From a virus, in the IMG/VR virus record IMGVR_UViG_3300009128_000081, positions 1 to 32,532 of that record: a DNA stretch of 32,532 nucleotides. The stretch is one strand, 5' to 3'. The position numbers and the translations under genes are program-made. This document shows, in pieces, positions 162-32,532 of this stretch. The stretch's first letter is position 1. Each line of letters starts with the position of its first letter. The notes under the pieces were generated by a model that ran no database searches, had not been told where the DNA came from, and saw only the letters and a list, made by a program, of their open reading frames with translations.

Positions 162-1740
162 AGTTAAAGCGGCCGTCTGTGCTTATGCCTATTGGAATGT
201 TGGATTCTTTGCTAAATTCTTCTTAGGGGAATATTGCCTTTTGCCGTTTTCCCAGATGCACTTTGACTTGTTCCAGAAAAACCCAGAACGACGCGGGCGA
301 CATGAAGTCATTGCGGCGCCGCGAGGACATGCGAAGACGACTATCCGTAGTTTTATCGACATTGTTCACGATATTTGCTATAGGTTGGAAGATTACATTC
401 TGATTATCTCCGAGACGGCGACCGTAGGAGATGATCGGGTTCGTGATCTGAAATATGAAATCGAAACAAATGAACGCATCCGGGAATACTTCGGCGACTT
501 GAGTGGTGACCGCAAATGGTCTGAAACCGACTTTGAGACCAGCAATGGGATTGCCGTGACTTCCAAAGGTAGGGGAAAGCAAGTGCGCGGTTTGGTACGC
601 ACCGGACGGCGTCCATCGAAGGTCGTTATCGACGATATCGAGAGCAAGGAAAGTGTTCGCAATCCGCAACAACGCGAAAAGGTGTGGAACTGGATTCAAC
701 AAGACGTGATGCGCGCTGGACGGGTAGACGGAACGACAAATTTCAAGTTTATTGGGACGTTTCTCCATGATGAAGCGGCACTCCCTCAGCTGGTGAAATT
801 GCCGGGATACCGCAGCAAAGTTTACAAAGCGGTTCTGTCCTGGTCAAATCGTCAAGACCTGTGGGAAGAATGGAAAGATATTTATTGTAATCTTGAAGAT
901 GATGACCGCGAACAGAGTGCCATTGAGTTTTATCAAACCAACGAAGCGGAGATGCTGGACGGGGTAAAAGTGTTGTGGCCGGCGGGGATGTCTTACTATG
1001 ACATTCAGGAAGCGATTATCAACACAGGACGGTACGCCGTCAACTCAGAACTCCAGAACGAACCGCATGACCCGGAGACGCAAATCTTTGATATGGAAAG
1101 CGCCGGCAAGTTTAGTATCGAAGGCAATCCGGGGGAAGAGATGCTCAACGTCAGCGGACAGAGCGCGCACTTCCGGCCTTTTAAGGGCAAGTTAAAACCG
1201 TTGGATCAAATGCAGAAGGTTTTATTTCTTGACCCGGCTTTAGGCAGTGATAGTGGAGTATCGTATCCCGCCATCGCCGTTGTCGCACGCGATGATAAGA
1301 ATTATAATTATGTCATAGATATTTGGCTGGACAAAGTGCCACCCAGTCGGCAAGTCGTTCAAGCCTTTGAGATGGCGGAAAAGTGGGGAGTTACCACAGC
1401 GGGATTGGAGACCAATTTATTCAAAGATTACATGCGTAAAGACTTCGAAGCCGAAATGTTACGACGCAAGCAAAAAGGCGACTATTGGCAGTTAAATATT
1501 ATTCCTGTCCATCAGTCAGCGAATAAAGAGGACAGGATTTCCGCGTTAGAGCCGAAAGTAGCCAATGGATGGCTGCTTTTCAACAACATCCTAAACGAAG
1601 CTGCCGTGCGGAGTTTTGAGCAATTCCCTACGGCAGCCTTTAACGACGCGCCTGATGCTGTTGAGGGCGCGTACTCGTTGCTAACTAAGCCGAGAACGCG
1701 CACTGGCAAGGTGGCGCATAATCGGCAGAGAAAACGTTGA
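49..1740 (+). CDS. terL: Phage terminase large subunit (ATPase plus nuclease)
   Basis: This is the DNA-packaging motor that pumps genome into the prohead through the portal and cuts concatemers. The 563-residue protein carries a Walker A-like motif APRGHAKTT at residues 90-98 and a Walker B VVIDDIES at 192-199. The RNase H-like nuclease half shows FLDPALG with D395, GLETN with E454 and NDAPDAVEG with D533 and D536, the expected acidic metal ligands. ATG 49 follows a purine-rich AAAGG about 5 nt upstream. The next in-frame Met is residue 70, which is too late. A copy of the 31-bp E1 repeat lies in the linker between the two halves (residues about 369-379, GQSAHFRPF), so that stretch may be an insertion relative to homologues. 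The portal gene normally follows directly; here two accessory genes intervene. Confidence 0.95.
   Translation: MIGKPEAQAHLRKLAKTWTLTQFQELLRKLEAQQKRNEVKAAVCAYAYWNVGFFAKFFLGEYCLLPFSQMHFDLFQKNPERRGRHEVIAAPRGHAKTTIRSFIDIVHDICYRLEDYILIISETATVGDDRVRDLKYEIETNERIREYFGDLSGDRKWSETDFETSNGIAVTSKGRGKQVRGLVRTGRRPSKVVIDDIESKESVRNPQQREKVWNWIQQDVMRAGRVDGTTNFKFIGTFLHDEAALPQLVKLPGYRSKVYKAVLSWSNRQDLWEEWKDIYCNLEDDDREQSAIEFYQTNEAEMLDGVKVLWPAGMSYYDIQEAIINTGRYAVNSELQNEPHDPETQIFDMESAGKFSIEGNPGEEMLNVSGQSAHFRPFKGKLKPLDQMQKVLFLDPALGSDSGVSYPAIAVVARDDKNYNYVIDIWLDKVPPSRQVVQAFEMAEKWGVTTAGLETNLFKDYMRKDFEAEMLRRKQKGDYWQLNIIPVHQSANKEDRISALEPKVANGWLLFNNILNEAAVRSFEQFPTAAFNDAPDAVEGAYSLLTKPRTRTGKVAHNRQRKR
1153..1183 (+). repeat. 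E1 dispersed ~30-bp repeat, copy A, inside terL
   Basis: This 31-bp stretch matches 6517-6547 at 30 of 31 positions; the only difference is G at 1165 versus A at 6529. The two copies are read in different frames of their host genes, so the similarity is at DNA level and not due to protein homology. Core bases are AGAGCGCGCACTTCCGGCC. Confidence 0.85.
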
Positions 1741-4536: not shown

Positions 4537-4783
4537 ATGTATAAATGAACCATGCCCTGTAAAAGGCACAGTTGAAAACCCCGATGGCATGGAAATAACG
4601 GACTTGACCAGAATTGACCACGAACCGGATTTAAAAGCAAAAGGACAAGATTATCTGATTTGGGTTTGTCCGGCTTGTGCTACCTCGGCTGTGGCGATAT
4701 TGAAAGAGAAAGCCCCAGAGGAAGCTCGATACCGCCAGACCGGCCATAAAGCGGCTAAGAAAAAAGAGGAACCGGAAGCATAG
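4523..4783 (+). CDS. Small zinc-ribbon-like protein
   Basis: The 86-residue protein has four cysteines arranged as CINEPC near the N-terminus and CPAC near residue 52, consistent with a zinc ribbon or knuckle, and a Lys/Glu-rich C-terminal tail. The start at 4523 is chosen because AAGGAG is 7-8 nt upstream. The longer frame from 4496 has no such site. Codons near the end (PEEARYRQTGH) coincide with the E2 repeat, which recurs exactly at 18253-18283 in another frame of another gene. The function is unknown; a small head accessory protein is likely from position. Confidence 0.7.
   Translation: MADIKCINEPCPVKGTVENPDGMEITDLTRIDHEPDLKAKGQDYLIWVCPACATSAVAILKEKAPEEARYRQTGHKAAKKKEEPEA
4718..4748 (+). 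repeat. E2 dispersed 31-bp repeat, copy 1
   Basis: The 31 bases here recur without mismatch at 18253-18283. Core bases are GAAGCTCGATACCGCCAGAC. Here they are read as EEARYRQTGH; there as GSSIPPDRP, in a different frame, so this is DNA-level repetition. Confidence 0.85.
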
Positions 4784-4800: not shown

Positions 4801-5012
4801 GGGGCCAGGGGTCAATGTTGTTGACTTAAGGAATGAACGCGAAGATTGATACTTCCTAAATCCCCCCGGCCCCCTTTACGAAAGGGGGAGGAATGCTGAT
4901 CTTTCCGCTACGGATTGTGAGAAGAATCACTGAAGTCCCCCTTTGAGAAAGGGGGATTTAGGGGGATTTTTCTGAATCAATCCGCTAAGTCAACAGTATT
5001 GGGGCCAGGGGT
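4801..5012. mobile_element. MITE-like insertion with 12-bp target-site duplication
   Basis: The 12-mer GGGGCCAGGGGT occurs at 4801-4812 and again at 5001-5012. The 188 bp between has imperfect terminal inverted repeats: the left end contains TGTTGACTTA (4819-4828) followed by AGGA, and the right end TCCGC followed by TAAGTCAACA (4986-4995). The ends begin just inside the duplicated 12-mer. No coding capacity is present. Inside lie two large G/C palindromes around 4854-4892 and 4934-4971, themselves inverted relative to each other. Joining the flanks across the insertion restores a run from 4786 to the ribosome site of the next gene. This is the structure expected for a non-autonomous DNA element. 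Confidence 0.7.
4854..4971. repeat. Inverted pair of CCCCCTTT...AAAGGGGG palindromes
   Basis: The left unit has CCCCCTTTACGAAAGGGGG (about 4871-4889) preceded by TAAATCCCCC. The right unit has CCCCCTTTGAGAAAGGGGG (about 4937-4955) followed by ATTTAGGGGGATTT. The two are inverted copies. Similar C5T3/A3G5 palindromes are common intergenic repeats in many bacterial genomes, so the phage probably picked them up from a bacterial chromosome. Confidence 0.75.
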
Positions 5013-5021
5013 GGGTTGATA

Positions 5022-6071
5022 ATGCCAAAAACCGTTCAACAACTCATAGCCTCCATAAGAGAAGTTGCCATAGTACACCAAAAGCATTTGGATAGTCTCA
5101 CCGATGATGCTGAACGCTCTCTCATCTCCAGCACCCTTGCAACCGAGAAACGGATAGCGACTCGGTTGCAAGGGCTTTTACCTGAATTTGAGCAGGGGCA
5201 AATCGGTGATGACAAGGCATTTCGGATTTTGAACCGAGCGGAGAACATCGACATCGCAGCACGGATTTACAGCTTGATTCAAAATGAATTGCAACCTTTT
5301 TCGGACGAGGCTACGAAATGGGCGATTGAATACCTGTCCGATGCTTTTGTCGCCGGGACGGAAGCGATTACTGATGAATACAACGCCGGATCTGATGAAG
5401 AATTATCCTACGCTTTTGATGAACAGGACGCGATGGTGATGGAAATAGCCTTGACCAAAGGCTATGGCAAAGAGCAAAAGGGCATTGGCAAGATTAAAGA
5501 ACTGACGCAAGAGACAGCGAATTCAGTTCGGGATGTTATCTTGCGTGGGATTGCCGAACGGAAAACCACAACGGAATTGATGTCAGAACTCTGGAATCCA
5601 GAAGTCGGCTTGACTTCGTTGGAGATTTTTGATTCCCTTGGACGCAAGCGAACGATGTCTGTCAGAGAACGAGCAAAGCTAATAGCAAGAAATGAAATAG
5701 CGCAAATATATCAAGTCGCCGCCAACGAAAAGGCAAGAGATGTGTTTGGCGACGACCCGTTTTGGTACTATGGCTCCATCTATGAGCCAAATACTATGAC
5801 GGATTGGTGTAAGAAAAGGTTTGGTAGAATCGCTAAAGTTTCAGAATGGAATGATGTCAATTGGGTACAATCCCAGTTTGGAGATTCTCGCACCGGCACT
5901 GGACACATCCACGTTAATTGTAGGCAGAGCGGATATTCCGTGACGCCGGATTGGTTTGATGATGATGATTGGCAGGAAATTGAGAACGGTAAACATACTT
6001 TAGTTGGTGAGGATTTGAAGGAATGGCAAAGTGATGATGAAAAGAAAGTAGAATCATCTTGGCCGGTGTAG
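5022..6071 (+). CDS. Mu gpF-like head morphogenesis protein
   Basis: This is a minor head protein of the Mu F family, which binds inside the portal region and takes part in prohead assembly or is ejected with DNA. About 349 residues: the N-terminal two thirds are helical. The C-terminal domain (roughly residues 215-310) shows the family pattern of ARNEIAQIY, then a W-Y region with a D-x-x-T-x-W-C segment (TMTDWCKKRFG), and closes with GHIHVNCRQ, equivalent to the conserved H-x-x-C-R motif. ATG 5022 is chosen, with AGGGGTGGG upstream; that site is the right-hand target duplication of the neighbouring insertion, so the insertion lies immediately against the ribosome-binding region. It ends in TAG. 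Confidence 0.85.
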   Translation: MPKTVQQLIASIREVAIVHQKHLDSLTDDAERSLISSTLATEKRIATRLQGLLPEFEQGQIGDDKAFRILNRAENIDIAARIYSLIQNELQPFSDEATKWAIEYLSDAFVAGTEAITDEYNAGSDEELSYAFDEQDAMVMEIALTKGYGKEQKGIGKIKELTQETANSVRDVILRGIAERKTTTELMSELWNPEVGLTSLEIFDSLGRKRTMSVRERAKLIARNEIAQIYQVAANEKARDVFGDDPFWYYGSIYEPNTMTDWCKKRFGRIAKVSEWNDVNWVQSQFGDSRTGTGHIHVNCRQSGYSVTPDWFDDDDWQEIENGKHTLVGEDLKEWQSDDEKKVESSWPV

Positions 6072-6157
6072 CGGAATCGACCTTCCTCACAAGTATTTTA
6101 ATCAGGAACTTAAAAATGTGTAGATACAAACGAAAAACGAAAGAAGAGGGGCAGAAA

Positions 6158-7102
6158 ATGATATTTCAAAAGATTCAGATACCATCAGCATTATCATATG
6201 TAATTGCCCAATTCCTTTTTGGCGAGACACCGAAAGAAGGCGACCCGCCAGCGGACAAGGAAGGGGAAAAGAAAACCACCCCGCCGCCAGAAGAAAAGAT
6301 GATTCCCGAATCCGAATGGAAGCGGATGTTAGGTGATGAGCGGAAACGGATGGCAGATGAAACCAGAGCGGCGGTGTTAAAAGAAGCAGAAACGAAAATT
6401 GTTTCAGAGGAAACCCTGAAAGAATTAGGTTTCAAGTCAGTTGAAGAGCTTTTAGCAGATGTTAAGAAAACCAAAGAAAGCGGAGATGATGACAAGAAAG
6501 GAAAAAAGAGCAAGGAAGCGGACAGAGCACGCACTTCCGGCCTTTTAGAAGAAGGGAAAGCTAAACCGGAAGAAATCCAAGCATTGGAAAGCCGATTCCA
6601 AACTGAAGTCGAACAGCGCGATAAAGAGATTGAAAAACAAACCAAAGAAGCCGAGACGCTAAAAGCAGAGCTTGAGTTGGAGCGCATCGACAATGCGCTG
6701 AAATATGAATTGGAAAGGCTACGCGCTTCAAGTTCAGATTTGATCGCCATGGGCTTGCGCCAATTTGTGAAGATGGACAATGATCGAAAACCGATGGTAG
6801 TCAATGAACAAGGCGAACCGCGAGTGAAAACCGTCGAGTATACCGAAGACGGCGTGAAACGATTCCGTACTGACGACATGGCTATCGGCGATTTGGTAGA
6901 AGAATTTCTCCAGAAAGAAGAGAATCAACATTTCCTTCCAGCATCACCTAAAGAGGGCAGTGGCGCTGGAGGCATCTTGCCACCGAATGAGAAAGTGGCA
7001 AAGCAAACCCAATATAATACACTCAAGGAAGAATTAGCGAAAACAGGGGAAATAACACCGGAATTTCATCGCTTGCAACGTGAGTTGTACGCACAAAACT
7101 GA
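6158..7102 (+). CDS. Scaffold-like capsid assembly protein
   Basis: The 314-residue, highly charged protein has long predicted coiled coil from about residue 45 to 195 (many K/E/A/L heptads) and a shorter structured C-terminus, typical of phage scaffolding proteins encoded just before the major capsid protein. ATG 6158 has GAGGGG 7 nt upstream. ATG 6116, with CAGGA upstream, is a longer alternative. The frame remains open back to 6059 but that start is a TTG without a site. An E1 repeat copy lies at 6517-6547 (read as EADRARTSGLL) in the middle of the coiled coil, where an insertion would be tolerated. No protease motif was found. Confidence 0.7.
   Translation: MIFQKIQIPSALSYVIAQFLFGETPKEGDPPADKEGEKKTTPPPEEKMIPESEWKRMLGDERKRMADETRAAVLKEAETKIVSEETLKELGFKSVEELLADVKKTKESGDDDKKGKKSKEADRARTSGLLEEGKAKPEEIQALESRFQTEVEQRDKEIEKQTKEAETLKAELELERIDNALKYELERLRASSSDLIAMGLRQFVKMDNDRKPMVVNEQGEPRVKTVEYTEDGVKRFRTDDMAIGDLVEEFLQKEENQHFLPASPKEGSGAGGILPPNEKVAKQTQYNTLKEELAKTGEITPEFHRLQRELYAQN
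6517..6547 (+). repeat. E1 dispersed ~30-bp repeat, copy B, inside scaffold gene
   Basis: It matches the terL copy (1153-1183) at 30 of 31 bases but is read in a different frame, as ADRARTSGLL. The same frame is used by the copy at 12553-12581. Confidence 0.85.
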
Positions 7103-7124: not shown

Positions 7125-7249
7125 AGGCGGAGGTTATTCCACTGAAAGTGGAGCTATAAGTTTTGATTTCACAGGATTTTTTAAAGGCCGAACGTGCGCG
7201 CTCTATTCCCACGGAATGGGTTGTGAAATCAAAACAAATAACACCGCCT
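7125..7249 (+). promoter_or_regulatory. Nested stem structure in the capsid gene leader
   Basis: The outer stem pairs AGGCGG..GTTATT (7125-7138) with AATAAC.CCGCCT (7237-7249). Inside lie a small hairpin CCACT/AGTGG (7139-7151) and a perfect 14-bp stem, GTTTTGATTTCACA at 7160-7173 with its complement at 7222-7235. The 48-nt loop of the latter holds an E1 element in minus orientation (7182-7209) and a hairpin ATTCC/GGAAT. Together this is a three-way-junction-like leader ending 44 nt before the major capsid start. It could act on mRNA stability or translation; that role is inferred only from position. Confidence 0.6.
7182..7209 (-). repeat. E1 repeat, minus-strand copy in hairpin loop
   Basis: Read on the minus strand it starts GGAATAGAGCGCGCACG and ends TTCGGCCTTTA, aligning end to end with the other E1 copies (shared GGA start, AGAGCGYGCAC core and CGGCCTTTA end). 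It occupies the loop of a 14-bp hairpin. Confidence 0.65.
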
Positions 7250-8429: not shown

Positions 8430-8490
8430 GGAATTCGGAATGCGGAATTAAAAAACAATTCAGAAATCCGAAATCCAAGTTCCGAATTCC
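8430..8490. repeat. GGAATTCGGAA palindrome after the capsid gene
   Basis: An 11-bp perfect inverted repeat GGAATTCGGAA (8430-8440) / TTCCGAATTCC (8480-8490) starts 3 bp after the capsid stop. Related sequence occurs at 17968-18097, 24719-24744 and 29195-29214. Such degenerate GGAATTCGG repeats are widespread in environmental bacterial genomes. It may act as a hairpin between capsid and the modification genes but lacks a U-tract. Confidence 0.75.
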
Positions 8491-9350: not shown

Positions 9351-9734
9351 ATGACATTTGAGGAGTTCCAAGAATACTGGGAACAAGAAAGAACACGGGT
9401 GACCAAGGGCTTAGATAAATTTGCTGCAATGCGTGCAGAGGGCGCGTTAGCGGATAACATCGCGATGATGTGCCAATCAGGGATGATTGAAGTAGATGAA
9501 CCAGAAAATACATGGTCTTGTAGTGAGACATCTTGGGAACATTATGAATCGCCGAAAGATGATATAGACTTAGCCGATAAAGGCCAGGAAGTGCATGCTC
9601 TGTCCGCAAGTTTAACCGAAAGTTGCACTTTAACACCCGGCAGCCCGGATATGATTCAGGGCGCGGTTGAGATACCGCAAGGCGATTTTAAACGCACATT
9701 ATCACCTATAACTCGCAGGGGGCGGAACAAATGA
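9351..9734 (+). CDS. Acidic protein of unknown function in the modification cassette
   Basis: A 127-residue protein with no recognised motif. It begins with a charged helix (MTFEEFQEYWEQERTRV) and becomes low in structure after residue 50, with a Trp/Ser/Glu-rich segment (WSCSETSWEHYESP) and a basic end. It overlaps the following glycosyltransferase gene by 4 bp in an ATGA junction, so the two are translationally coupled. It lies between radical SAM and glycosyltransferase genes and could be their substrate or partner, but the sequence itself does not show this. Confidence 0.65.
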   Translation: MTFEEFQEYWEQERTRVTKGLDKFAAMRAEGALADNIAMMCQSGMIEVDEPENTWSCSETSWEHYESPKDDIDLADKGQEVHALSASLTESCTLTPGSPDMIQGAVEIPQGDFKRTLSPITRRGRNK

Positions 9735-12715
9735 ACTACGACATCGCATTCTATTGTAACTCAATACCTTTCACCGACGCCACTTGTCGATTAGAGCACA
9801 GTTTGGGCGGCTCTGAAACCATGCTTATTGGCATGGCACGGGAACTGGCGAAACTGGGTAATAGAGTGCAGATCTTCACCAAATTTGAGAGTATTGAACA
9901 TGAGGGCGAATATGACGGAGTATGGTTTTACGACCATAGCCATTTCAGGGACCTGTTATCGACGATAAGTTGGGACATTTTTATTTCTTTACGTATGCCG
10001 GGGATTATGACTTCACCCGTCAGAGCTGGCGCAAGGTTTCTCTGGAATCAAGACGAACTGGTTCATCCCAAGAACTTCATGGGACATCTCTGGCAAACCG
10101 ATGGCTTATTCTTTGTTTCCGACTGGCACAAAGAGCATTATTGCGAGAAATTACCCGAATTACGACCGTTTTCTTGGGTAACTCGCAACGGAGTAGATTT
10201 AGAACTTATCAGGCAATCAACTCAGGGGATAGAAAAAGACCCCTACAAACTAATCTATATTTCTCGTCCCGAGCGGGGCTTGGAGCCGTTATTGCAGATT
10301 TCCCCAAAGATACAACGTCATTGCCCAGAATTAAAGCTATATTGCGCCCGCTACTATTCGATGTATGAGCCGATGCCAGGGATTAAAGCAATTTGTGACC
10401 GCGCCGATGCAGCGATGGCGGAAACACCGGGATGTGAATATCTGGGGAATCTGTCCAAAGAAGAGCTATATCGTGAAATAGCTTCATCGCGTTTGATGGT
10501 TTATCCGGGTGTGCCAAACTTCAACGAAACGGGTTGCATTGCGGCGATGGAAGCGCAAGCCTGTGGCACACCGATAATTTGTACCAACACAGGGGCACTG
10601 ATGGAAACCGTCGCCGATGGCGCTGGAGTAAAGATAACAGGTGATTCTTACAGCGACGAATATCAAGCAATTTTTACCCAAAACGTGTTGAACTTACTGG
10701 TAGAGGATGAAAAATACGCTGAGATGCAAGAAGCTGGTTACCAGCACATGCAGAAATATGATTATTCGGTGATTGCCAAGGAATGGCAAGAATATTTCGG
10801 GGTTTTCTTTGAAAGCCGCATGAAAAAGCGCGGTCGAGCTATTTATCGCCAATTGCGTCATCATGACGATGTTTTGGCGGCTCACCATTTAGCATCAGAA
10901 CTGAATTTGGTCTCCGAATTAAAGGAATGTGACGAGGTTTTAAGCTATACCGAGGAGAAAAAAGAGAGTGAAAAAGAAGTATATGCCAAACACGCGGCAT
11001 CTCCAGAAAAAGAAGTAAACACCGTTCGCTTTCAAGAAGTGCTTAAATCTCTTGGGCAAGAAATAGGACTAAACGGGCAGGAGGAATTACGTGTTCTTGA
11101 TTTTGCTTCTGGTAATGGAAGCCTCGCGGCAATGTTAGCGAGCGCATTGCCAAACAGCGTTGTAGTCGGTATGGATTTCTCGCCGCAGTTAGTTGCCGTC
11201 GCTACTGAATTTGCCAGAACGCAAAAGATTAAAAATATTAGTTTCCAAGAAGGCAGTTTAGAGCACATCCAAGGCGTTTTTGATATTATCGTTTGCGGTG
11301 AGTTTTTAGAACATTGTGATGATTACAGAGCGGTGATTGAAAAACTGGAAAGTCATCTCACACAGAACGGCTGGATTTGCTTCACTCTGCCATATGGGCC
11401 AATGGTGGAATTGTTTCTCCATCAAAAAGACAAAGCAAAACATCGTGGACATGTTGTTCATTGGGAATTTGCCGACTTAAACACCGTATTCGATCAAAAG
11501 AAAAACTTTCAATTCCGCGCTTTGCCACTTGGAATCACTGCCAGAGGCAACCCTTTAGGGCATTGGATTATCACATATCAAAACTCACCCGATAACCCCA
11601 CAGGTTCGATAGACTTTGATAAGAAAATCCGCGTTACTCGTCCATACGAAGGATTATCAATCTGTATGATAGGGCGGAACGACGCCAAATGGGTTGATTT
11701 ATGTTTGGTAAACTTAGTTGACATTGCTGATGAGATCATCGTAGCAACAAACGACGAAAGTGAAGATTTACATCTTGATTCGCCAGATGATATGTTGGAA
11801 CGCCTTGAGAAGTGGCGTGATTATTTTCATGGCGACGAAGAAAATGCCTTTAAGATAATCCATCTCCCCGAACTTTGCCCAGGTGTACCGCTTGAAACAC
11901 CGCCTCCAGGTAATTTTTCATGGTTGCGAAATGAGAGTATCAAACTCGCTATTGAGAATTGGATAGGATGGGTTGATTTTGACGAAGGTTTAACGTATCC
12001 CATCGCCATCCGTAAATATCTTACAGACAGCGTTTTCAACGGCTTTGGTGTGCGTCAAGTTCATTTGTCAGTTGACAAAGAGAAACATCATGATGTCCCG
12101 ATTCGCATTTTTCGCAATGGCAAAGGCTATCAATTCTTCGGCTGCATTCACGAACACGCTGAAGCGGAACTGGACAAACCGATTCACCCATCACTGGAGA
12201 TTCCTGAATCATCTTTAGCGCACTTTGGTTATGTTCACGAAGACCAACGCCGAAAGAAATGTATTGACCGCAATTTCGCCATGCTGAAACTCGACCAACA
12301 ATTCTTCCCAGGTCGGCAACTTACCAACGTCCTTTGGGCGCGAGACCATATCAACTTTGCTATGTGGGAGCGCTCAGGAAACGGCAATCGTATGACCCCA
12401 GAGGCGGTAGATCAATGCTGGCAAACCGTGAAGAAATACAAAGACGGGCCGTGGTTTAACGATCCAGAACATATCTATTTCAAGCTCATTTTTGGATTCT
12501 ATCAAACCGCCTTGCAATGGCTACAAGCTGGATTCGAATTTGATATGCAAAGGGAAGAGAGAGCGTCACTATCGGCCTTTAATGAAAGCGGTCAGAAAAT
12601 GCGTTTTCTGTCGCTGGAAGAGTTTAGCGAATATAGCAAAAAGTTAATTGACCGGAAAGTAGACGAAATGACTTATGATTATCCTCACTTACCGCGGGCA
12701 ATAATACCGGAGTAA
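9731..12715 (+). CDS. Trifunctional glycosyltransferase-methyltransferase-glycosyltransferase
   Basis: The 994-residue protein has three modules. Residues 1-375 are a GT-B (GT4-like) glycosyltransferase: N-terminal GGSETM loop, VSDWHKEHY, ISRPERGL and a donor-binding GCIAAMEAQACGTPII around 266-282. Residues about 430-620 are a class I SAM methyltransferase with VLDFASGNGSLA (motif I, about 453-465), VVGMDFSPQLV and a later FDIIVCGEFLEH. Residues about 640-900 are a GT2-like glycosyltransferase: LSICMIGRND start, RNESIKLAIENW then WVDFDEG (the acidic metal-binding motif) and FFGCIHEHAE. The C-terminal stretch contains the E1 repeat (REERASLSAFN). Combining these activities suggests synthesis of a methylated glycan on the virion or host surface. 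It follows the radical SAM and capsid genes in the same direction. Confidence 0.85.
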   Translation: MNYDIAFYCNSIPFTDATCRLEHSLGGSETMLIGMARELAKLGNRVQIFTKFESIEHEGEYDGVWFYDHSHFRDLLSTISWDIFISLRMPGIMTSPVRAGARFLWNQDELVHPKNFMGHLWQTDGLFFVSDWHKEHYCEKLPELRPFSWVTRNGVDLELIRQSTQGIEKDPYKLIYISRPERGLEPLLQISPKIQRHCPELKLYCARYYSMYEPMPGIKAICDRADAAMAETPGCEYLGNLSKEELYREIASSRLMVYPGVPNFNETGCIAAMEAQACGTPIICTNTGALMETVADGAGVKITGDSYSDEYQAIFTQNVLNLLVEDEKYAEMQEAGYQHMQKYDYSVIAKEWQEYFGVFFESRMKKRGRAIYRQLRHHDDVLAAHHLASELNLVSELKECDEVLSYTEEKKESEKEVYAKHAASPEKEVNTVRFQEVLKSLGQEIGLNGQEELRVLDFASGNGSLAAMLASALPNSVVVGMDFSPQLVAVATEFARTQKIKNISFQEGSLEHIQGVFDIIVCGEFLEHCDDYRAVIEKLESHLTQNGWICFTLPYGPMVELFLHQKDKAKHRGHVVHWEFADLNTVFDQKKNFQFRALPLGITARGNPLGHWIITYQNSPDNPTGSIDFDKKIRVTRPYEGLSICMIGRNDAKWVDLCLVNLVDIADEIIVATNDESEDLHLDSPDDMLERLEKWRDYFHGDEENAFKIIHLPELCPGVPLETPPPGNFSWLRNESIKLAIENWIGWVDFDEGLTYPIAIRKYLTDSVFNGFGVRQVHLSVDKEKHHDVPIRIFRNGKGYQFFGCIHEHAEAELDKPIHPSLEIPESSLAHFGYVHEDQRRKKCIDRNFAMLKLDQQFFPGRQLTNVLWARDHINFAMWERSGNGNRMTPEAVDQCWQTVKKYKDGPWFNDPEHIYFKLIFGFYQTALQWLQAGFEFDMQREERASLSAFNESGQKMRFLSLEEFSEYSKKLIDRKVDEMTYDYPHLPRAIIPE
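12553..12581 (+). repeat. E1 repeat, copy inside the glycosyltransferase gene
   Basis: The 29 bases from GGAAGAGAGAGCG to ATCGGCCTTTA are identical to 16768-16796, which lies in an intergenic hairpin loop. Here they are coding (EERASLSAF). Confidence 0.9.
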
Positions 12716-13692: not shown

Positions 13693-14265
13693 ATGAAAGC
13701 TAAAAACATCCAGATTACTCCTGATAAAATATCCTTTTCAATCTTCAATGATGATGGTACACCCTTTTTAAACGCTTCCGGCCGTCCAGTTACGCATGAA
13801 TCGAATGGCTGGATGAATGACGAAATAACAAATTTCACCGCAGATGACGTCGAAGAGGAAATTGATAATCTGATGTATACGACTGTTAATCTGGTAAACA
13901 GAGCGAAACAACGTGTTAGCCAACGCAATCAAAAAATTGACCGCCTATCGGAGATTAAATCTAATGTCACGGCTGAACTGACGATGATTGAAACTCCGAC
14001 CATAACGATTACAAGTGAAGAGGGGGAGCAGACTTCACCATATACCTTAGCGGGTAATTTTGCTCATGTTGACGGGGTGGATTATATCTTAAAGACCAAA
14101 GATGAGACGATAGAGACTGGAAGCATGATAAAAACCCCTTTTTCCAAAGATTTTAGTTTAGACTCTGATATATCATATTCTATTATATTAAGTGCATCAA
14201 ACAAGCGTGGGGAATGTACTGAGACCATAAATATTACTATTACGGCAGCCCCTGTTACGTTTTGA
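13693..14265 (+). CDS. Virion-associated protein with Ig-like C-terminal domain, unknown
   Basis: This 190-residue protein has a polar N-terminal half with a helix (VNRAKQRVSQRNQKIDRLSE, about 75-95) and a beta-strand-rich C-terminal half (ITITSEEGEQTSPYTLAG to TINITITAAP) that reads like an Ig-like or PKD-like fold. Such domains decorate phage heads and tails. AAGGTAAG before ATG 13693 supports the start. The TGA stop lies inside the left arm of the hairpin at 14259-14272, so insertion of that hairpin may have set the present C-terminus. Confidence 0.6.
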   Translation: MKAKNIQITPDKISFSIFNDDGTPFLNASGRPVTHESNGWMNDEITNFTADDVEEEIDNLMYTTVNLVNRAKQRVSQRNQKIDRLSEIKSNVTAELTMIETPTITITSEEGEQTSPYTLAGNFAHVDGVDYILKTKDETIETGSMIKTPFSKDFSLDSDISYSIILSASNKRGECTETINITITAAPVTF

Positions 14266-14362
14266 TTTTACAAACACTCAATTTACATCTTGTTTCAACA
14301 ACTACTCAATTGAATTTTCTGTTGAAACAAGATAAACAATTGAATTAGTGTAAAATCAAAAC
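14259..14362 (+). repeat. Two nested 14-bp-arm hairpins
   Basis: The outer arms GTTTTGATTTTACA (14259-14272) and TGTAAAATCAAAAC (14349-14362) are perfectly complementary. Within their loop sits a second perfect hairpin, ATCTTGTTTCAACA (14287-14300) with TGTTGAAACAAGAT (14320-14333), whose 19-nt loop centres on CTCAATTGAA. Inner and outer arms are related to each other (pattern RTYTTGWTTYNACA). There is no U-tract, so it is not a standard terminator. Confidence 0.85.
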
Positions 14363-15007: not shown

Positions 15008-15527
15008 AACTGATATTTATACCGCTGTATGGGACGAAATCTATGGCTATCGCAACTCAAACCTGAATTATATTCGAGGTTGGTTCGAAGCGGATGTCGG
15101 AAATATACCGTTGGCGAGTTTGCCAGCCATTTCCTTATATCCTGTGAATGTCGCCACTCCCAGTCGAGAAACTGGCGGGGATATATTTTTGCTATCCTTG
15201 ATTCTTAAAGGTATTGTCCAGCATTTTGACCCGATAGAAGTGCCAGACGGCGCCACCGGCAGAAAAGGGATACTCGATCTTTATCATGATCTTGACCGGG
15301 CTGCTTTTACCATGTTGCTCCAAGAAGAAGTCACAGTTGACAGCGTTACCACCACAGTACAAACTTTCCCCATTTTCACTGACGCCCCGGCGGTGCGCGA
15401 CATTATCATCGATACTGCCGAATTTACTACCGAAATGTATGAAGACGATTATCCGAATTTGGCAGTCAGGATACCAATTGATATTTGGTATATCAAGACT
15501 GATGAAGTACGAAGAATTTTGTCTTGA
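14997..15527 (+). CDS. Probable tail terminator protein
   Basis: This 176-residue protein starts with GTG 14997, inside the end of the morphogenesis gene. It has an N-terminal helix (ETDIYTAVWDEIYGY), a hydrophobic strand and LPAISLYP, followed by strands that could form the alpha/beta fold of lambda gpU-like tail terminators. Order (after gpG-like, before tail tube) supports a protein that caps the tail tube. The fold match is by pattern only. The stop TGA lies in a copy of the repeated hairpin arm. Confidence 0.6.
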   Translation: MALETDIYTAVWDEIYGYRNSNLNYIRGWFEADVGNIPLASLPAISLYPVNVATPSRETGGDIFLLSLILKGIVQHFDPIEVPDGATGRKGILDLYHDLDRAAFTMLLQEEVTVDSVTTTVQTFPIFTDAPAVRDIIIDTAEFTTEMYEDDYPNLAVRIPIDIWYIKTDEVRRILS

Positions 15528-15575
15528 TTTTACAACCACTCAAATAACACAGGGCGGGGCGGAGGAAACTAAAAA
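15521..15575 (+). repeat. Orphan hairpin arm plus leader resembling the capsid gene leader
   Basis: GTCTTGATTTTACA at 15521-15534 matches the hairpin left arms, but no complementary right arm follows. Instead it is followed closely by AAATAACAC and then GGGCGGGGC and GGAGG. The capsid leader has AAATAACAC (7236-7244), then GGGGCGGGGC about 20 nt later, directly after its right arm. The two leaders therefore appear to share an origin, with the hairpin's right half lost here. Confidence 0.6.
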
Positions 15576-16283
15576 ATGAGCTATCGATCAGAAAAACTTA
15601 ACGGAATATGCCCAGGATTCAAGGAAATGACTCTGGGTGGCAAAATAGATGCCCTTCTTACTCTCGGGCGGGAATTACATGATGACCACGCTACTTTGGT
15701 TACTTGGATAACGGAAGTGGACGCTGACGAAGACCTTATCAATAATTACTTGGATTTTCTGCAAGAAGCCGATGGAGTTATAGGCGGCAACTTCTCCATT
15801 AGCGCAGGTGCGGCAGTTACTCTTACAGGTGCAGGGCATATCAAATACCGTATTGGCGGACAAATTTATTATGGTGATTTAGATACCACTATAACACTTG
15901 CAGACGATGGGGATGTAGATACTACCAAATGGCGAGCATGGAGAATCGAAATAGCGCGTGATGGTACGGTAACCGCCACAGCCGATGGCGATACTCAACA
16001 TGCCAGTGAAGAAGACGCAGTGATGAGTTTGGCTGGAACGGCCCCAACTGCGAATACTGCGACAATCGGTTATTTTACCATTAACAGTAATGGCGGGTTT
16101 AACATTGGCACTGATAATGTCAATGGAGAAACTGCTGAAAATGTTTATCATGTGCGCGGACCAAAAAATCAAGTGAGTGGGCTTACGGCGGCTTTAGGCA
16201 GCGCCGTTGTTGCCGATGCTGCGGCGGCTACTTGGTCATCTGGTACAATTGATGTTATGCGAAATGGACTTCGTTTAGCGTAA
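15576..16283 (+). CDS. Tail or fibre-like structural protein, part 1 (ends at in-frame TAA)
   Basis: This 235-residue protein has a helical N-terminus (GKIDALLTLGRELHDDH) and beta-rich repeats with VIGGNFSISAGAAV, AWRIEIARDGTVTATADGD and TIGYFTINSNGGFNIGTDN. GGAGG before ATG 15576 gives a strong start. TAA 16281 is followed in the same frame by 151 open codons whose sequence looks like the natural continuation of this protein (next feature). Residues after about 120 and the downstream part appear to be tandem copies of one beta module. The reading frame, intact on both sides, suggests a recent nonsense change or stop-codon readthrough. Function is unknown; it lies between tail terminator and tail tube. 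Confidence 0.7.
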   Translation: MSYRSEKLNGICPGFKEMTLGGKIDALLTLGRELHDDHATLVTWITEVDADEDLINNYLDFLQEADGVIGGNFSISAGAAVTLTGAGHIKYRIGGQIYYGDLDTTITLADDGDVDTTKWRAWRIEIARDGTVTATADGDTQHASEEDAVMSLAGTAPTANTATIGYFTINSNGGFNIGTDNVNGETAENVYHVRGPKNQVSGLTAALGSAVVADAAAATWSSGTIDVMRNGLRLA

Positions 16284-16736
16284 ATCGGAGCTATCACCAA
16301 CCAAGCGATGGACGACGCTGATACCATCGCTACGGTTAAAGCAGGAGGTTGGCTCTTAGTAGTCGATTTGGCTGGAACTGGGGTTTATGCTTTGGCTGCC
16401 GATGGCGCGGCCGGTTCGGTTAGCGCGATGACTTACGCAGATACGGATGCGGTTGATACTGCACTTGATACACTTTGCGACCAGTTACCAGAATTACTCG
16501 TTCCGATAGCGAAAATTGTTGTTGACAATGCTTCAGGCGGTACATTCACAGCTGGAACGACCAATTGGGATGCTACCGATATCACAACGACTGTCACTGA
16601 TATGACACTTGGAACGTGGGACAGAACTGCGAACACTGGTTTTGATAGTCATAAAATCAATCCGCCAAGTATACCAGCAAGTATCGCGGCGACGATTTTG
16701 GCGACTTTAACAGCAGCGAAACCAGAGGCATTATAA
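16284..16736 (+). pseudogene. In-frame continuation of the 15576 gene after TAA
   Basis: The frame stays open from the codon after TAA 16281-16283 to TAA 16734. The first Met is at 16308 and has no ribosome site, so independent translation is doubtful. The sequence (GGWLLVVDLAGTGVYALAADG, then LLVPIAKIVVDNASGG and FTAGTTN) parallels the module in part 1 (W-x-x-E-I, G-x-V-x-A-x-A-D-G, then F-x-x-GT-x-N), which indicates one two-module protein of about 385 residues. It may be made only by readthrough, or not at all. Confidence 0.6.
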
Positions 16737-16742
16737 AGTTAC

Positions 16743-16819
16743 ATCTTGTTTCAACAGAAAATTCAATGGAAGAGAGAGCGTCACTATCGGCCTTTATTGA
16801 GTAGTTGTTGAAACAAGAT
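16743..16819 (+). repeat. 14-bp-arm hairpin with an E1 element in its loop
   Basis: The arms ATCTTGTTTCAACA (16743-16756) and TGTTGAAACAAGAT (16806-16819) equal those at 14287-14333. Its loop is the reverse complement of that hairpin's loop with 30 bp added at 16768-16797. This is a near-perfect inverted copy of the other hairpin carrying one insertion. Confidence 0.9.
16768..16796 (+). repeat. E1 repeat, copy in hairpin loop
   Basis: All 29 bases are identical to 12553-12581 inside the glycosyltransferase gene. It sits exactly between GAAAATTCAAT and a TGAGTAGT tail that are contiguous in the related hairpin loop. Confidence 0.9.
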
Positions 16820-16830
16820 AAAAAGTTAAA

Positions 16831-17966: not shown

Positions 17967-17967
17967 C

Positions 17968-18097
17968 GGAATTCGGAATTGGAAATTCGGAATGCGGAAT
18001 TAACATCTTGATTCGACAAAAATTCAATTGAGTCAGTGTCGAATCAAGATAAAAATTAAAAACAAAGAAAATCTTTTAAATCCGAAATCCAAATTCC
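17968..18097. repeat. GGAATTC palindrome with a 14-bp-arm hairpin nested inside
   Basis: The left part (17968-18001) is GGAATTCGGAATT-like and the right part (18081-18097) is its imperfect complement TCCGAAATCCAAATTCC. Between them lies the hairpin ATCTTGATTCGACA (18005-18018) / TGTCGAATCAAGAT (18037-18050). Relative to the copies at 14287 and 16743, both arms change together (T to A and A to G, with matching changes opposite). The palindrome at 8430 has no such insert, so one element appears placed within the other. Confidence 0.8.
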
Positions 18098-18106
18098 AAA
18101 AGAGCG

Positions 18107-18206: not shown

Positions 18207-18953
18207 ATGGAAACACCAAAACCAGAAATCCTCACTAATCCACTGCCACCAGGAGGAAGCTCGATACCGCCAGACCGGCCATATGGAGAAACGGAAGAGG
18301 ATGAGGATGTTTTAGATAGGCCTGTTACCGAGGTTTTTTTTCGCGCCTTCCGCAATGAATTCGAGGCGAAATTTGCCGAGATAGAAAAGTTTCTTGATGC
18401 GCTCAAACAACAGGAAAACGCCAAGTTGCGTGATACTGCTTTAGATGTTCCGCAAGAGATTAAGATTGGCAAGAAGAAATATCAACTCAACCGCCTGCCA
18501 GCCGGTTATCGGGTTTTAATGATTAACAAGCTCCAACAGATTGCCGACCTTATTCCCAAACCCGAACCAGCGCCGGTGGAAACTCTGGCGCAAATTCTCG
18601 CGGAATGGAACGCTGCACCCTCGTCTGCTCAAGATAAAGACAAGCAAGAGCCCGCCGAGCTTGCCAACCAGTTGCTTGAAGCAACCCAACAACCCGGACT
18701 ATTAGCACAAATCACCGGACAATCGCAAGAGATTTTTCAACTCATCTGCCAGACTATTCAACTTGCCATACAAGCTGGACGCGGCAAGCCAGACATTGAC
18801 CCAGAAACTGGAGCGATCAAGAACGCGATAATTGATTTAGAAACGCTGGAGTGGGAATGTGATGGCATCGAAGAGATTTTCACTTCAATTATAGAAATGA
18901 ATCTACCGATCTTTTTTACTATACAGAGCGTCCAGAGGAGTCTGATGGTGTAA
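18207..18953 (+). CDS. Tail assembly chaperone, G product
   Basis: This 248-residue protein matches lambda gpG-type chaperones in layout: a Pro-rich N-terminus, a helical core (IADLIPKPEPAP, then ELANQLLEATQQPGLLAQI) and an acidic end (LEWECDGIEEIFTSIIEMN). These proteins coat the tape measure during tail polymerisation. ATG 18207 follows AAGGGGG; an upstream TTG at 18162 is less likely because it overlaps the structured leader. An E2 repeat lies in codons for GSSIPPDRP. Near the end the frame overlaps, by about 90 nt, another open frame at -1, as in the G-GT frameshift system. Confidence 0.75.
   Translation: METPKPEILTNPLPPGGSSIPPDRPYGETEEDEDVLDRPVTEVFFRAFRNEFEAKFAEIEKFLDALKQQENAKLRDTALDVPQEIKIGKKKYQLNRLPAGYRVLMINKLQQIADLIPKPEPAPVETLAQILAEWNAAPSSAQDKDKQEPAELANQLLEATQQPGLLAQITGQSQEIFQLICQTIQLAIQAGRGKPDIDPETGAIKNAIIDLETLEWECDGIEEIFTSIIEMNLPIFFTIQSVQRSLMV
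18253..18283 (+). repeat. E2 dispersed 31-bp repeat, copy 2
   Basis: It is identical over 31 bases to 4718-4748. It lies in the 5' part of the chaperone gene and is read in another frame than copy 1. Confidence 0.85.
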
Positions 18954-24515: not shown

Positions 24516-24719
24516 ATGCTGCATAAACTAAAATGCCGCTTTGGTCTTCATGAATATCAGCTTGTAGAAGTTCTTAAACACGTTGTCGCGCTCTATACGT
24601 GGAACATATATGTCGCACTGGAGAAATGCTTGCATTGTGGTAGATATAGATTGGAGCGAAAACTTACCTGGCACAGGCATGTATTTACAGACCATTATGA
24701 GATTAGCATAGGTAAATAA
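24516..24719 (+). CDS. Small Cys/His protein, possible zinc binder
   Basis: A 67-residue basic protein with CRFGLHEY near the start and CLHCGRYRLERK later, followed by several His. The arrangement C-x-F-G-x-H ... C-x-x-C is common in small phage zinc-finger proteins. ATG 24516 is preferred over the upstream TTG 24480, which overlaps the phosphatase gene, although no strong ribosome site is visible. Function unknown. Confidence 0.55.
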   Translation: MLHKLKCRFGLHEYQLVEVLKHVVALYTWNIYVALEKCLHCGRYRLERKLTWHRHVFTDHYEISIGK

Positions 24720-24744
24720 TTCCGAATTCCGAATTCCAAATTCC
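24719..24744. repeat. AATTCCG-type repeat before the Dit gene
   Basis: Tandem TTCCGAATTCC units, the right-hand half of the GGAATTC palindrome family seen at 8430 and 17968, abut the GGAGGT ribosome site of the next gene. The left half is absent. Confidence 0.7.
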
Positions 24745-24754
24745 GGAGGTTATC

Positions 24755-29194: not shown

Positions 29195-29214
29195 AATTCC
29201 GAATTCCCAATTCC
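29195..29214. repeat. AATTCCG-type repeat before the Tal gene
   Basis: ATTCCGAATTCCCAATTCC lies directly before ATG 29218, where a ribosome site would be expected, and none is visible. A purine-rich AGAAGGG lies about 65 nt further upstream. The repeat may have displaced it. Confidence 0.65.
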
Positions 29215-29217
29215 ACC

Positions 29218-32200
29218 ATGGCCGATTATACTTTTATTTTATACGATAGAACAAACACAACATCCAAATGCACTTTAGCCCCCCGTTCCGCCGTTGACGC
29301 TACCATAGAAGACGAAATCAACGGAGTGCAGCATTTACGCCTATCCATCCCTTTAGACACCGCCGACCAGCGCTCACGCTCCGAACAGGTAGCGCGCTTC
29401 GATGTCATTCGGTTAGTAGACACCGAAAACAAAACTCATCGTAGTTTTCGGGTATATTTTCTGCACGAATCCAAAGATCGATTAACCCTAACCATCGAAG
29501 CCGACGACCTTATTCTCGACCTTGCCCGCGTCCAGTTTGTAGCCGATGGGCGAGCAGACATCGACTATACCTATACAGGTGATGGAAAATATATCGCCTC
29601 CAACGCTACGGTAACGACCGTACTCACGGCAGCTTTAGCGCGGTCAGATTTTAGCGTTGGCACAGTGTCATCCGCTTTGGATAACGCCCCAAAAGAATAC
29701 CAATTTGTTAATGAAACCGCTTTGTCGGTACTCCAGAAGATAATCTCCGCTTATAAAGAAGACTACCCCAACTGTGGATATCGGCGCAACGAAGACGGTA
29801 CGATTGATTTCCTTTCCGACCTATCGCAAAACACCGGCACATTCTTAATCAACCGCAAAAATCTGCTCAGTCTAAATCACACCCTCGATGTTCGCGAATA
29901 TGCCAATAGGATTTTCCCCTTTGGCGCAAAAGCGGACTGGCAGCACGTCCATTCGGGTATCGAAAGTGAAATCACCAGCGTTGTCGCTAAAACTGGCATT
30001 GATGCTGAGAAAGTCTACGTCGATGAAACCAATGATGCGTGGAAGTGGCGATATGGAGATGTTGGTGACATTCTCTATTCTACCTCAGCAGGTTCAGTCG
30101 ATAGTGGCTCATCCGCGCAGACGATGGCCGTTGCCGGCGTAACGATGTATGATAACGAATATCGTGGGGGGATTTTCGAGGTTACCGGCGGCGACTTGAA
30201 AGGTGTTCTGCGGGCTATCGACGCAAACGATGATAGTGGGAATCTCGCTTTAAACGATAAACTCCATTTTGTCAATGATGCTGACGACATTATTGGTGAA
30301 TCCTGCCGCTTGGCAAAAAATGTCCGCCCAGTTGACATCTGGGGTTTTGCCGTCAAAAGTTCCGAGGTGGAATCGGCGACGGCCAGTATGTTGTATGATT
30401 CGTTTGCCAGTTATGGAACATCGCAAGAATATCAAAACGGTTATATTGAATTTTTGGACGGCAACGCCCAAGGCATTGTTACCAGGGTTAATAGCCACGA
30501 CAATGATCAGCTTTATTTCACCACTCTTACTGCAACGCCCGACACCGGTGTTTCTTATCGCCTCACAGCCAACACGCCCGTTGACGGCTGCTTGTCTATT
30601 GAAGAGCCGGAGGAGGCCCCCTCAGCAGGTGATGTGATTATTTTACGCACCGTTGATTTTGGCGGGGGCTTAACCATCGGCAAGCATCCCCGATTTCGAT
30701 CAACAATCAATAGCGCGACCAACGCCTTGGTAAACCTTCCCACGGACGATGGTAGTAAGTTCAGCACCTATCAGATTGGGCAAATATTCACGTCCGAAAT
30801 CAACAGCATTGACCGCACCCGTCATTTTAATATTCAGCAGTTTGAGATAAACAGTATCAACGGTGATGTAATCTATCCCACCTCAACCCTTACCACAACT
30901 CCGACAAAAGGCGACCAAGTTGAAATTTTAACTTTGGTAAACTCAACAGAGGTTACATCATGGGGAGCTAAAGAAAGAACATTTAGGGATGACAGCATCG
31001 CCGACCCGTGGGAACTATATCTCACCGCCACGGACGAATTAGCCAATTTAGTTAGTCAGCGCACCTCTTATCAAATAAACTGCTTGGATTTGTGGAAAAC
31101 CGACCCGGACACCTACCAGTTTTACCAGTTTGATATTGGCGATACATTGTCGATTTTCGATGAAGAAACTCAAATCAATGTTGGCGATTTACGTGTACGA
31201 CGGAAAACCTGGCGGCCGCTTACCCCGTGGGTTGTTGATCTAATTGAACTCAATGAAACAATACAAACAACGTCAAAGCTGGATGTATCAGACCAACAGA
31301 AACTCAAACAAACGGCGGATAAAATTGACATTTTAACTCGCGAAAAGCAGCACGAAACTTGTCAACATTGGGATGAACAAAACAAGGAATGCCTCAAAGA
31401 TACAGCCCCAAACACCTTCTGCCGCACTTCTAAATCAAACCGAGATGGAAAATTACGGTCGGATAAATCACCGATTACCAAAGCCGATTGCAACAACTTC
31501 GAGCCACGTGCTAAGGGGGAAAAGGGGGAGCATGGCGGATACGCTTTTCGTTGGTCTTATAGCAGTAGCACATCAGCGCCGCCAAGCTCAGGTTTTTTTG
31601 AGTTTAACAACAGCGATTTGTCCTTAGTAACGGAGATTTACGCTCACGATACCAGCTATAACGGGACAGACGTTAGCGACTTCCTTGATTCTTTTCTTGC
31701 CGCTGGTATAATTAAAATCTGGAAAGAAGGCAGCCCCTCGATCTACTGGCTTGGCAGCATCACCAGTAAAGCCGATAATGGAACTTATTTCACCTTTGGC
31801 GTTTCGTATACCGGCCATAGTGGTAGTTTCAACTATCTTGAGACGGCTGTGATTGAATATAGTAATAGCGGCACGGCTGGAGGCACATCAGGGACTTCAG
31901 AAGTCGGAACATCTGGAACAACTGGCACTTCTGGGACCACCCCGCCGGAATTTACTAGTGGATCAAGCGGCACATCTGGCACGGGTACATCCGGCGTAGA
32001 TGGCACGAGTGGCGTTGATGGCACATCTGGCACGGGTACATCCGGCGTAGACGGCACGGACGGAGTAGATGGCGACCCTGGCGGGCCCTCGGCTCCGTAT
32101 AAGTTTAGCACAGTAACAACGGACGGCGACCCGGGCAGTGGGTATTTACGATTTAATCATGCCACGTATTCAAGTGTAACAAAGATTTATATTGATAATA

Positions 32201-32532
32201 ACGACAGAAACGGGAGTGATGTTAGCAGTTGGCTTGCAACTTGGGATGATAGCTCAAATGTGCCTAGAAGTATATTAAAAATATTTGAAGAAGGCGATTT
32301 GACCAATTTCATCTTTTTTGAAGTAACGGCCCGTTCTGTCGGGGTTGGCTACCAAAAATTTAATCTGACCTATGTTGACCACGCAGGCAGTTTTTCCGCT
32401 GGAGATAATATAATTGTGTCATGTATGCCAGTAGGTGATGCTGGCACTGACGGCGTCGATGGAACGGATGGCGTCGATGGCGTTGATGGAACCAACGGCG
32501 TCAATGGAACGGATGGCGTCGATGGAACGGAT
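29218..32532 (+). CDS. Tail-associated protein/fibre (Tal-like), 3' end outside the window
   Basis: The frame is open for 1105 codons to the window end. The N-terminus (MADYTFILYDRTN, then IEDEINGVQHLRLSIPL and LTIEADDLILDLA) and the following region to about residue 370 resemble the baseplate hub domain of Tal/prophage tail endopeptidase proteins. A short coiled coil (KLDVSDQQKLKQTADKIDI) sits near residue 690. Then come two related beta modules of about 105 residues (775-884 and 961-1074) sharing GTDVS/GSDVS, IIKIWKEG/ILKIFEEG and HSGSF/HAGSF, separated by a Gly-Thr-Ser and Gly-Val-Asp collagen-like stretch, with a second collagen-like stretch at the end. No ribosome site is seen. It likely forms the tail tip fibre that contacts the host. 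Confidence 0.8.
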   Translation, partial: MADYTFILYDRTNTTSKCTLAPRSAVDATIEDEINGVQHLRLSIPLDTADQRSRSEQVARFDVIRLVDTENKTHRSFRVYFLHESKDRLTLTIEADDLILDLARVQFVADGRADIDYTYTGDGKYIASNATVTTVLTAALARSDFSVGTVSSALDNAPKEYQFVNETALSVLQKIISAYKEDYPNCGYRRNEDGTIDFLSDLSQNTGTFLINRKNLLSLNHTLDVREYANRIFPFGAKADWQHVHSGIESEITSVVAKTGIDAEKVYVDETNDAWKWRYGDVGDILYSTSAGSVDSGSSAQTMAVAGVTMYDNEYRGGIFEVTGGDLKGVLRAIDANDDSGNLALNDKLHFVNDADDIIGESCRLAKNVRPVDIWGFAVKSSEVESATASMLYDSFASYGTSQEYQNGYIEFLDGNAQGIVTRVNSHDNDQLYFTTLTATPDTGVSYRLTANTPVDGCLSIEEPEEAPSAGDVIILRTVDFGGGLTIGKHPRFRSTINSATNALVNLPTDDGSKFSTYQIGQIFTSEINSIDRTRHFNIQQFEINSINGDVIYPTSTLTTTPTKGDQVEILTLVNSTEVTSWGAKERTFRDDSIADPWELYLTATDELANLVSQRTSYQINCLDLWKTDPDTYQFYQFDIGDTLSIFDEETQINVGDLRVRRKTWRPLTPWVVDLIELNETIQTTSKLDVSDQQKLKQTADKIDILTREKQHETCQHWDEQNKECLKDTAPNTFCRTSKSNRDGKLRSDKSPITKADCNNFEPRAKGEKGEHGGYAFRWSYSSSTSAPPSSGFFEFNNSDLSLVTEIYAHDTSYNGTDVSDFLDSFLAAGIIKIWKEGSPSIYWLGSITSKADNGTYFTFGVSYTGHSGSFNYLETAVIEYSNSGTAGGTSGTSEVGTSGTTGTSGTTPPEFTSGSSGTSGTGTSGVDGTSGVDGTSGTGTSGVDGTDGVDGDPGGPSAPYKFSTVTTDGDPGSGYLRFNHATYSSVTKIYIDNNDRNGSDVSSWLATWDDSSNVPRSILKIFEEGDLTNFIFFEVTARSVGVGYQKFNLTYVDHAGSFSAGDNIIVSCMPVGDAGTDGVDGTDGVDGVDGTNGVNGTDGVDGTD
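31870..32089 (+). repeat. Collagen-like G-X-X coding repeat 1
   Basis: It encodes mostly G-T-S and G-V-D triplets, for example GTSGTGTSGVDGTSG, which form a triple-helical stalk in phage fibres. The DNA contains two near-identical units (GGCACATCTGGCACGGGTAC at about 31970 and 32020), prone to slippage. Confidence 0.85.
32440..32532 (+). repeat. Collagen-like G-X-X coding repeat 2 (cut by window end)
   Basis: It encodes GDAGTDGVDGTDGVDG and more G-V-D, G-T-N and G-V-N triplets to the window edge. The DNA is a short tandem repeat of GGAACGGATGGCGTCGAT type. Confidence 0.85.

Follow-up and report, generated by a model that had tools for sequence, protein, structure and literature searches.

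A 30-bp repeat at the apex of a MITE-like hairpin in a phage record, with related copies in a Poribacteria genome

The DNA analysed here (the window: 32,532 nucleotides, positions 1 to 32,532 of IMG/VR virus record IMGVR_UViG_3300009128_000081) is a phage record with a late region resembling that of Mu-like phages. Its terminase is 31-35% identical to those of BalMu-1, Mushu, D3112 and a related record, and the late region also has genes for a portal protein, a Mu F-like protein and a major head protein. Dispersed among the intergenic gaps of this region are copies of a hairpin family, designated H, whose typical form is an AT-rich intergenic palindrome of ~46-50 bp with 14-bp arms and an 18-19 nt loop in which CAATTG is central. 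The copy at 16743-16819 has a perfect 14-bp stem, a DNA fold z-score of -3.6 and a longer loop that contains E1, a dispersed repeat of ~30 bp with the consensus GGAAnAGAGCGCGCACTTTCGGCCTTTA. The parts of this hairpin, and the empty hairpin with which it was compared, are as follows.

16735..16741, plus strand: flanking direct repeat AAAGTTA, left copy (direct-repeat scan)
16743..16756, plus strand: left arm, 14 bp, of the E1-carrying H hairpin (perfect stem, arms identical to those of 14287-14333)
16757..16805, plus strand: filled loop, 49 nt (loop comparison)
16768..16797, plus strand: 30-bp E1 insertion, with 2 nt of ambiguity in its placement (loop comparison and family model)
16806..16819, plus strand: right arm, 14 bp (perfect 14-bp stem)
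16822..16828, plus strand: flanking direct repeat AAAGTTA, right copy (direct-repeat scan)
14287..14333, minus strand: empty H hairpin with the same arms; the empty site, reversed in orientation, is its loop at 14301-14319 (loop and stem comparison)

To the left of the filled hairpin, ORFs 15576-16283 and 16308-16736 are in the same frame with one in-frame TAA between them (16281-16283), and may represent a read-through gene or a broken gene.

The original prediction held that the loop at 16757-16805 equals the reverse complement of the loop at 14301-14319 with 30 bp placed in the middle of CAATTG. Direct comparison showed this to be exact, in both coordinates and sequence. The reverse complement of 14301-14319 is GAAAATTCAATTGAGTAGT (19 nt) and the filled loop is GAAAATTCAAT followed by GGAAGAGAGAGCGTCACTATCGGCCTTTAT and TGAGTAGT (49 nt), a difference of exactly 30 bp that lies mid CAATTG. 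The two loops match over an 11 nt prefix and a 10 nt suffix; because two bases are common to both insert junctions, three placements of E1 are equivalent (CA/ATTG, CAA/TTG and CAAT/TG), the exact centre CAA/TTG being one of them. The two hairpins also have identical 14-mer arms. The presence of a filled and an empty site in one genome, in opposite orientations, is therefore directly observed, and the comparison of loops and arms confirms the prediction on this point as well.

We identified five members of the H family in the window (7160-7235, 14259-14362, 14287-14333, 16743-16819 and 18005-18050), all with related arms and with perfect stems of exactly 14 bp. In addition to the two hairpins given above, the H-related features are:

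7160..7235, plus strand: capsid-leader H hairpin with E1 in a 48-nt loop (stem and family model)
14259..14362, plus strand: outer H hairpin, stem 14 bp, with the 14287-14333 hairpin at its CAATTG apex (two copies of CAATT, one at 14279-14283 and one at 14337-14341)
15521..15549, plus strand: half H hairpin, left arm and half of the loop, ending at the apex (repeat comparison)
18005..18050, plus strand: third empty H hairpin, arms ATCTTGATTCGACA and loop AAAATTCAATTGAGTCAG, flanked by AATTAA repeats (stem and direct repeats)

The window has six stems of exactly 14 bp, and Markov-1 shuffles of it gave none longer than 12 bp. A perfect 14-bp palindrome with a 13-nt loop at 5134-5174 lies within the coding sequence of the Mu F-like gene, is without H sequence and was excluded from the family. 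Among the four distinct H stems, 5 of the 14 pairs differ on both sides and 0 on one side only, as is typical of a palindrome whose perfection is preserved, whether because selection maintains it or because one arm is corrected against the other. G-T pairs are absent from these stems, which points to DNA rather than RNA, although four sequences are few.

Direct repeats around H copies were also observed directly. They flank three of the five copies (CAATT at 14287, AAAGTTA at 16743 and AATTAA at 18005; P = 4e-4 in base-composition-preserving shuffles), and ATAA flanks a fourth. Since these repeats of 5-7 bp have the form of target site duplications, and perfect 14-bp arms serve as terminal inverted repeats in all five members, H looks like a small insertion of the MITE type. 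It had also been predicted that one hairpin sits within the loop of another at 14259-14362, and this was found to be the case. Without the inner hairpin and one CAATT, the outer loop reads AACACTCAATTGAATTAG and has the same length as other H loops. At its apex the outer hairpin has the CAATT that is duplicated; the nested structure is therefore an H copy inserted in the apex of another. A pattern scan of viral_contigs found no hairpin with H arms, and Rfam covariance models found no family in the window at its gathering score.

E1 has six copies in the window, together with a diverged relative, E3. Two of the six lie in hairpin loops and four in genes. Apart from the copy at 16768..16797, they are:

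1153..1183, plus strand: E1 in the terminase large subunit gene, in a segment missing in four homologs (homolog alignment and family model)
6517..6547, plus strand: E1 in ORF 6059-7102, an unassigned gene (family model)
7181..7210, minus strand: E1 in the loop of the capsid-leader hairpin (family model, E 1.3e-7)
9578..9607, minus strand: E1 in ORF 9351-9734, an unassigned gene (family model)
12550..12585, plus strand: E1 in a glycosyltransferase/methyltransferase gene; this and the 16743 loop copy are the two best copies, identical at 34/36 bases (repeat comparison and family model)
18601..18630, plus strand: E3, the diverged E1 relative, common to phage contig L008 (repeat comparison and family model)

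The second of the loop copies agrees with the prediction that the capsid-leader hairpin at 7160-7235 carries an E1, on the minus strand. All eight E1 copies of the window, L008 and L010 (a bacterial contig described below) score E <= 2e-4 with the family model; membership of the family is directly observed and is far above chance. As the gene copies are read in different frames, E1 is maintained at the level of DNA and not as a peptide. Terminal inverted repeats and self-complementarity are absent from E1, and its copies have no consistent target duplication (at most AT at 16743), so that the customary signs of transposition are missing. When 14 E1/E3 copies were folded, they did no better than shuffled sequence (z -0.64 to 1.27).

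Outside the window, E3 adjoins an E1 in the opposite direction in L008. A strict E1 pattern had two matches in ~85,000 species genomes. One, on an Oscillospiraceae contig (L009), was rejected as chance: it is a single copy at a contig end, and several chance matches are expected. The other is in UWMA-0232, a MAG of the candidate phylum Poribacteria, on a contig of ordinary chromosomal genes, where a hairpin with a 14-bp stem has E1 in its loop (L010, 7510-7538). With a sequence model, UWMA-0232 gave four E1 matches at E <0.1 and one more at E 0.28, against one weak match in 84 other Poribacteria genomes. At least two of the five copies are in genes and one is in the hairpin loop; a search of UWMA-0232 for the L010 hairpin in a second copy with a shorter spacer gave none. 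Searches for E1 by blastn in phages or plasmids gave only weak partial matches. Other candidates were also judged to be chance, namely a match with three mismatches in DNA that reads like a conserved comM-type gene (G001:C1068) and matches in L147, L148 and L149, which lie inside phage coding sequence and are without E1 ends.

One of the gene copies in UWMA-0232 is in flgI. Here, E1 is directly seen as an exact 10-codon insertion relative to the four highest-scoring Poribacteria homologs (50-51% identity), and it corresponds to an 11-aa gap in solved FlgI proteins. Because some more distant FlgI homologs carry a different segment of their own at the E1 site, this site is a variable part of the protein. 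The second gene copy is in a sensor-kinase-like ORF. Thus, the unit length of 30 bp has been seen twice independently, in the hairpin loop and in flgI. UWMA-0232 has other repeats in common with the window, and these suggest that the phage infects the UWMA-0232 lineage or a near one, although they are no proof of it.

Several further repeats were noticed during this analysis. A perfect 31-bp repeat, GAGGAAGCTCGATACCGCCAGACCGGCCATA, occurs at 4718-4748 and 18253-18283 in two genes and in different frames, and may be a third E1-like repeat. Repeats of the AATTCCGAATTCC type form runs at 8430-8490, 17967-18100, 24717-24747 and 29195-29215, and are also frequent in UWMA-0232 and L008, as a common repeat dialect. 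The hairpin at 4855-4962 (CCTAAATCCCCC..GGGGGATTTAGG) has a left part with many close copies in UWMA-0232. L008 has two nested 14-bp hairpins at 6334-6413, TTGTTGCTTCGACA being in the loop of TTGTTGCCCGCATA, and the inner arm matches an H arm at 10/14 bases. Among 414 kb of UWMA-0232, four of the seven stems of at least 13 bp are 14 bp long, too few for a rule. The last ORF of the window, which is open, has collagen-like, GGN-rich nine-base repeats at 31969-32523.

The direction of the change at 16743 was judged from paralogous loops. The loops at 14301-14319 and 18019-18036 and the reconstructed outer loop of 14259 are 18-19 nt long, nearly identical and without E1; because of these three, insertion fits better than deletion, and we infer one insertion at 16743 in place of several independent exact deletions. 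That E1 was instead ancestral in the H loop and was lost cleanly from the 14287 copy is very improbable. The capsid-leader hairpin does have a loop E1 as well, so that a loop E1 could be old, but that copy is on the opposite strand, with different flanks, and belongs to another subtype (GCGCGCAC rather than GCGTCACTAT). No relatives of the phage were found by DNA in the phages collection, and searches of viral_contigs with the capsid, the terminase and the 16831 ORF gave none either; the 16743 hairpin itself thus has no orthologous empty site, and the flgI gene of the MAG is the best substitute for a comparison of empty sites between genomes.

It was also proposed that apex-targeted insertion is a repeated event. 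Insertion in loops does recur (E1 at 16743, E1 at 7160, H at 14259 and E1 in L010), but E1 is not confined to apices, as shown by its copies in genes (4/6 in the window and at least 2/5 in UWMA-0232). The nested hairpin had been counted as a further example; H does sit at a CAATTG apex there, but it is a different element with a CAATT duplication and not an E1 event. The suggestion that the insertion point is always CAAT/TG was not supported. Insertion at CAATTG was found only in H copies having CAATTG in the loop, and E1 has unrelated flanks in the 7160 loop (TTTTT and CACGG), in the L010 loop (CATC and TGAA) and in genes. Two kinds of small mobile repeat therefore appear to have entered hairpin loops, neither always at CAAT/TG nor in loops only. 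It is quite possible, if somewhat less probable than its opposite, that there is no targeting at all, and that E1 inserts anywhere while loops tolerate 30 extra bases in a compact genome; this would replace only the loop-entry step of the explanation given below. The gene copies and the flanks without a common target speak for it, as does the small amount of noncoding DNA (~2 kb of the window). On the other hand, H loops account for ~5-6% of noncoding DNA and contain the two noncoding E1 copies of the window (P ~0.003-0.004 for uniform insertion over noncoding bases, a value computed after seeing the data), the bacterial intergenic E1 at L010 is also in a loop, and the insertion of H in H is likewise at the apex. 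The data agree both with entry through a single-stranded loop and with tolerance of insertions there; apex targeting amounts to a preference or tolerance, observed in a small number of events, and is no established mechanism.

Probably, two non-autonomous repeats have met here, E1 having inserted into the apex of the MITE-like H, and E1 inserts both in loops and in protein segments. According to this explanation, H would spread as a short palindromic insertion through the intergenic gaps of the late region, and E1, an insertion repeat common to the phage and at least one bacterial lineage, would have entered one H copy at its apex as a clean insert of 30 bp. Its sites of insertion would be hairpin loops and also variable protein segments, the latter by multiples of three bases; loops may be favoured because they are single-stranded upon hairpin extrusion, or at least because insertion is harmless there. 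Transfer might involve a trans-acting transposase, an RNA copy or template switching. Against it, loop events are few, the enrichment is post hoc, and loop tolerance alone would give the same pattern. A different origin, which we consider unlikely, is that a polymerase switched template at the apex, copied ~30 bases from the 12550 E1 and returned, so that E1 is not mobile and loops collect copies where polymerases stall. The near identity of the loop and 12550 copies would agree with this, since it includes AA on the left and TGA on the right, both also present in the empty loop, and so would the fully compensated H stems, as hairpin-templated correction would leave no one-sided changes. However, recurrent copies of ~30 bp at six window sites, in L008 and at five MAG sites exceed what local template switching predicts, and the bases beside the insert differ from those beside the source. 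There is even less reason to believe that E1 has a regulatory function instead of mobility, for example by pairing of an E1 RNA loop with opposite-sense E1 in the terminase and other late mRNAs. The capsid-leader loop is indeed antisense to E1 in the terminase gene and in ORF 6059-7102, but most gene copies agree in sense with the 16743 loop, E1 is present in unrelated bacterial genes such as flgI, and its folding is no better than that of shuffled sequence. Returning to the meeting of two mobile repeats, a bolder form of it is that E1 represents a mobile unit of a new class, consisting of 30 bp with neither inverted repeats nor self-complementarity. In phages and their hosts alike, such a unit would enter the single-stranded loops that are exposed when hairpins extrude, and its multiple-of-three length would let it pass through genes in frame. 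This stronger claim is rather doubtful.

To our knowledge, few bacteria have small repeats that enter genes in frame. For the repeat of exactly 30 bp described here, the phage genome itself supplies an empty hairpin as a yardstick and related bacteria supply E1-free flgI homologs, and the presence of E1 in phages and a bacterium links phage traffic to the spread of such repeats. The E1/H pair also offers a clean case for asking whether hairpin loops are an entry point.

Among known systems, H resembles MITEs, including ERIC-like intercistronic elements, in being an AT-rich intergenic palindrome with inverted repeats and a target duplication of 5-7 bp, although it is at the very short end of their range and consists of one perfect 14-bp helix in every copy. 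Rickettsia palindromic elements (RPE) are palindromic repeats of ~150 bp found between genes and in frame inside unrelated proteins (PMC10969869, PMC3733652). E1 shares these locations, with the 10-aa insertion in FlgI and the terminase segment as in-frame examples, but is 30 bp long and lacks self-complementarity. REP elements are known in the middle of larger palindromes, such as GTAG-15 of A. variabilis, GTAG-23 of T. roseum and CGTC-1 of H. neapolitanus (PMC3733652), an arrangement like that of E1 in H. Those inserts are palindromic and tagged with GTAG or CGTC, and several are dimers, whereas no E1 copy is palindromic, GTAG is absent from E1, and CGTC is only internal in some copies and not conserved. 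Furthermore, A. variabilis and H. neapolitanus showed no palindromes without an insert (PMC3733652), whereas empty and filled ones coexist here. Yeast mitochondrial GC clusters are short as well (GC42 = 42 bp) and spread and merge with one another (PMC4478555), but these are G+C-rich hairpins with AG target sites in mitochondria, whereas E1 is unstructured and bacterial or phage-borne. E1 resembles REP and RPE repeats in behaviour but not in palindromy, their defining feature; similar repeats are already known, and E1 is unusually short and non-palindromic among them.
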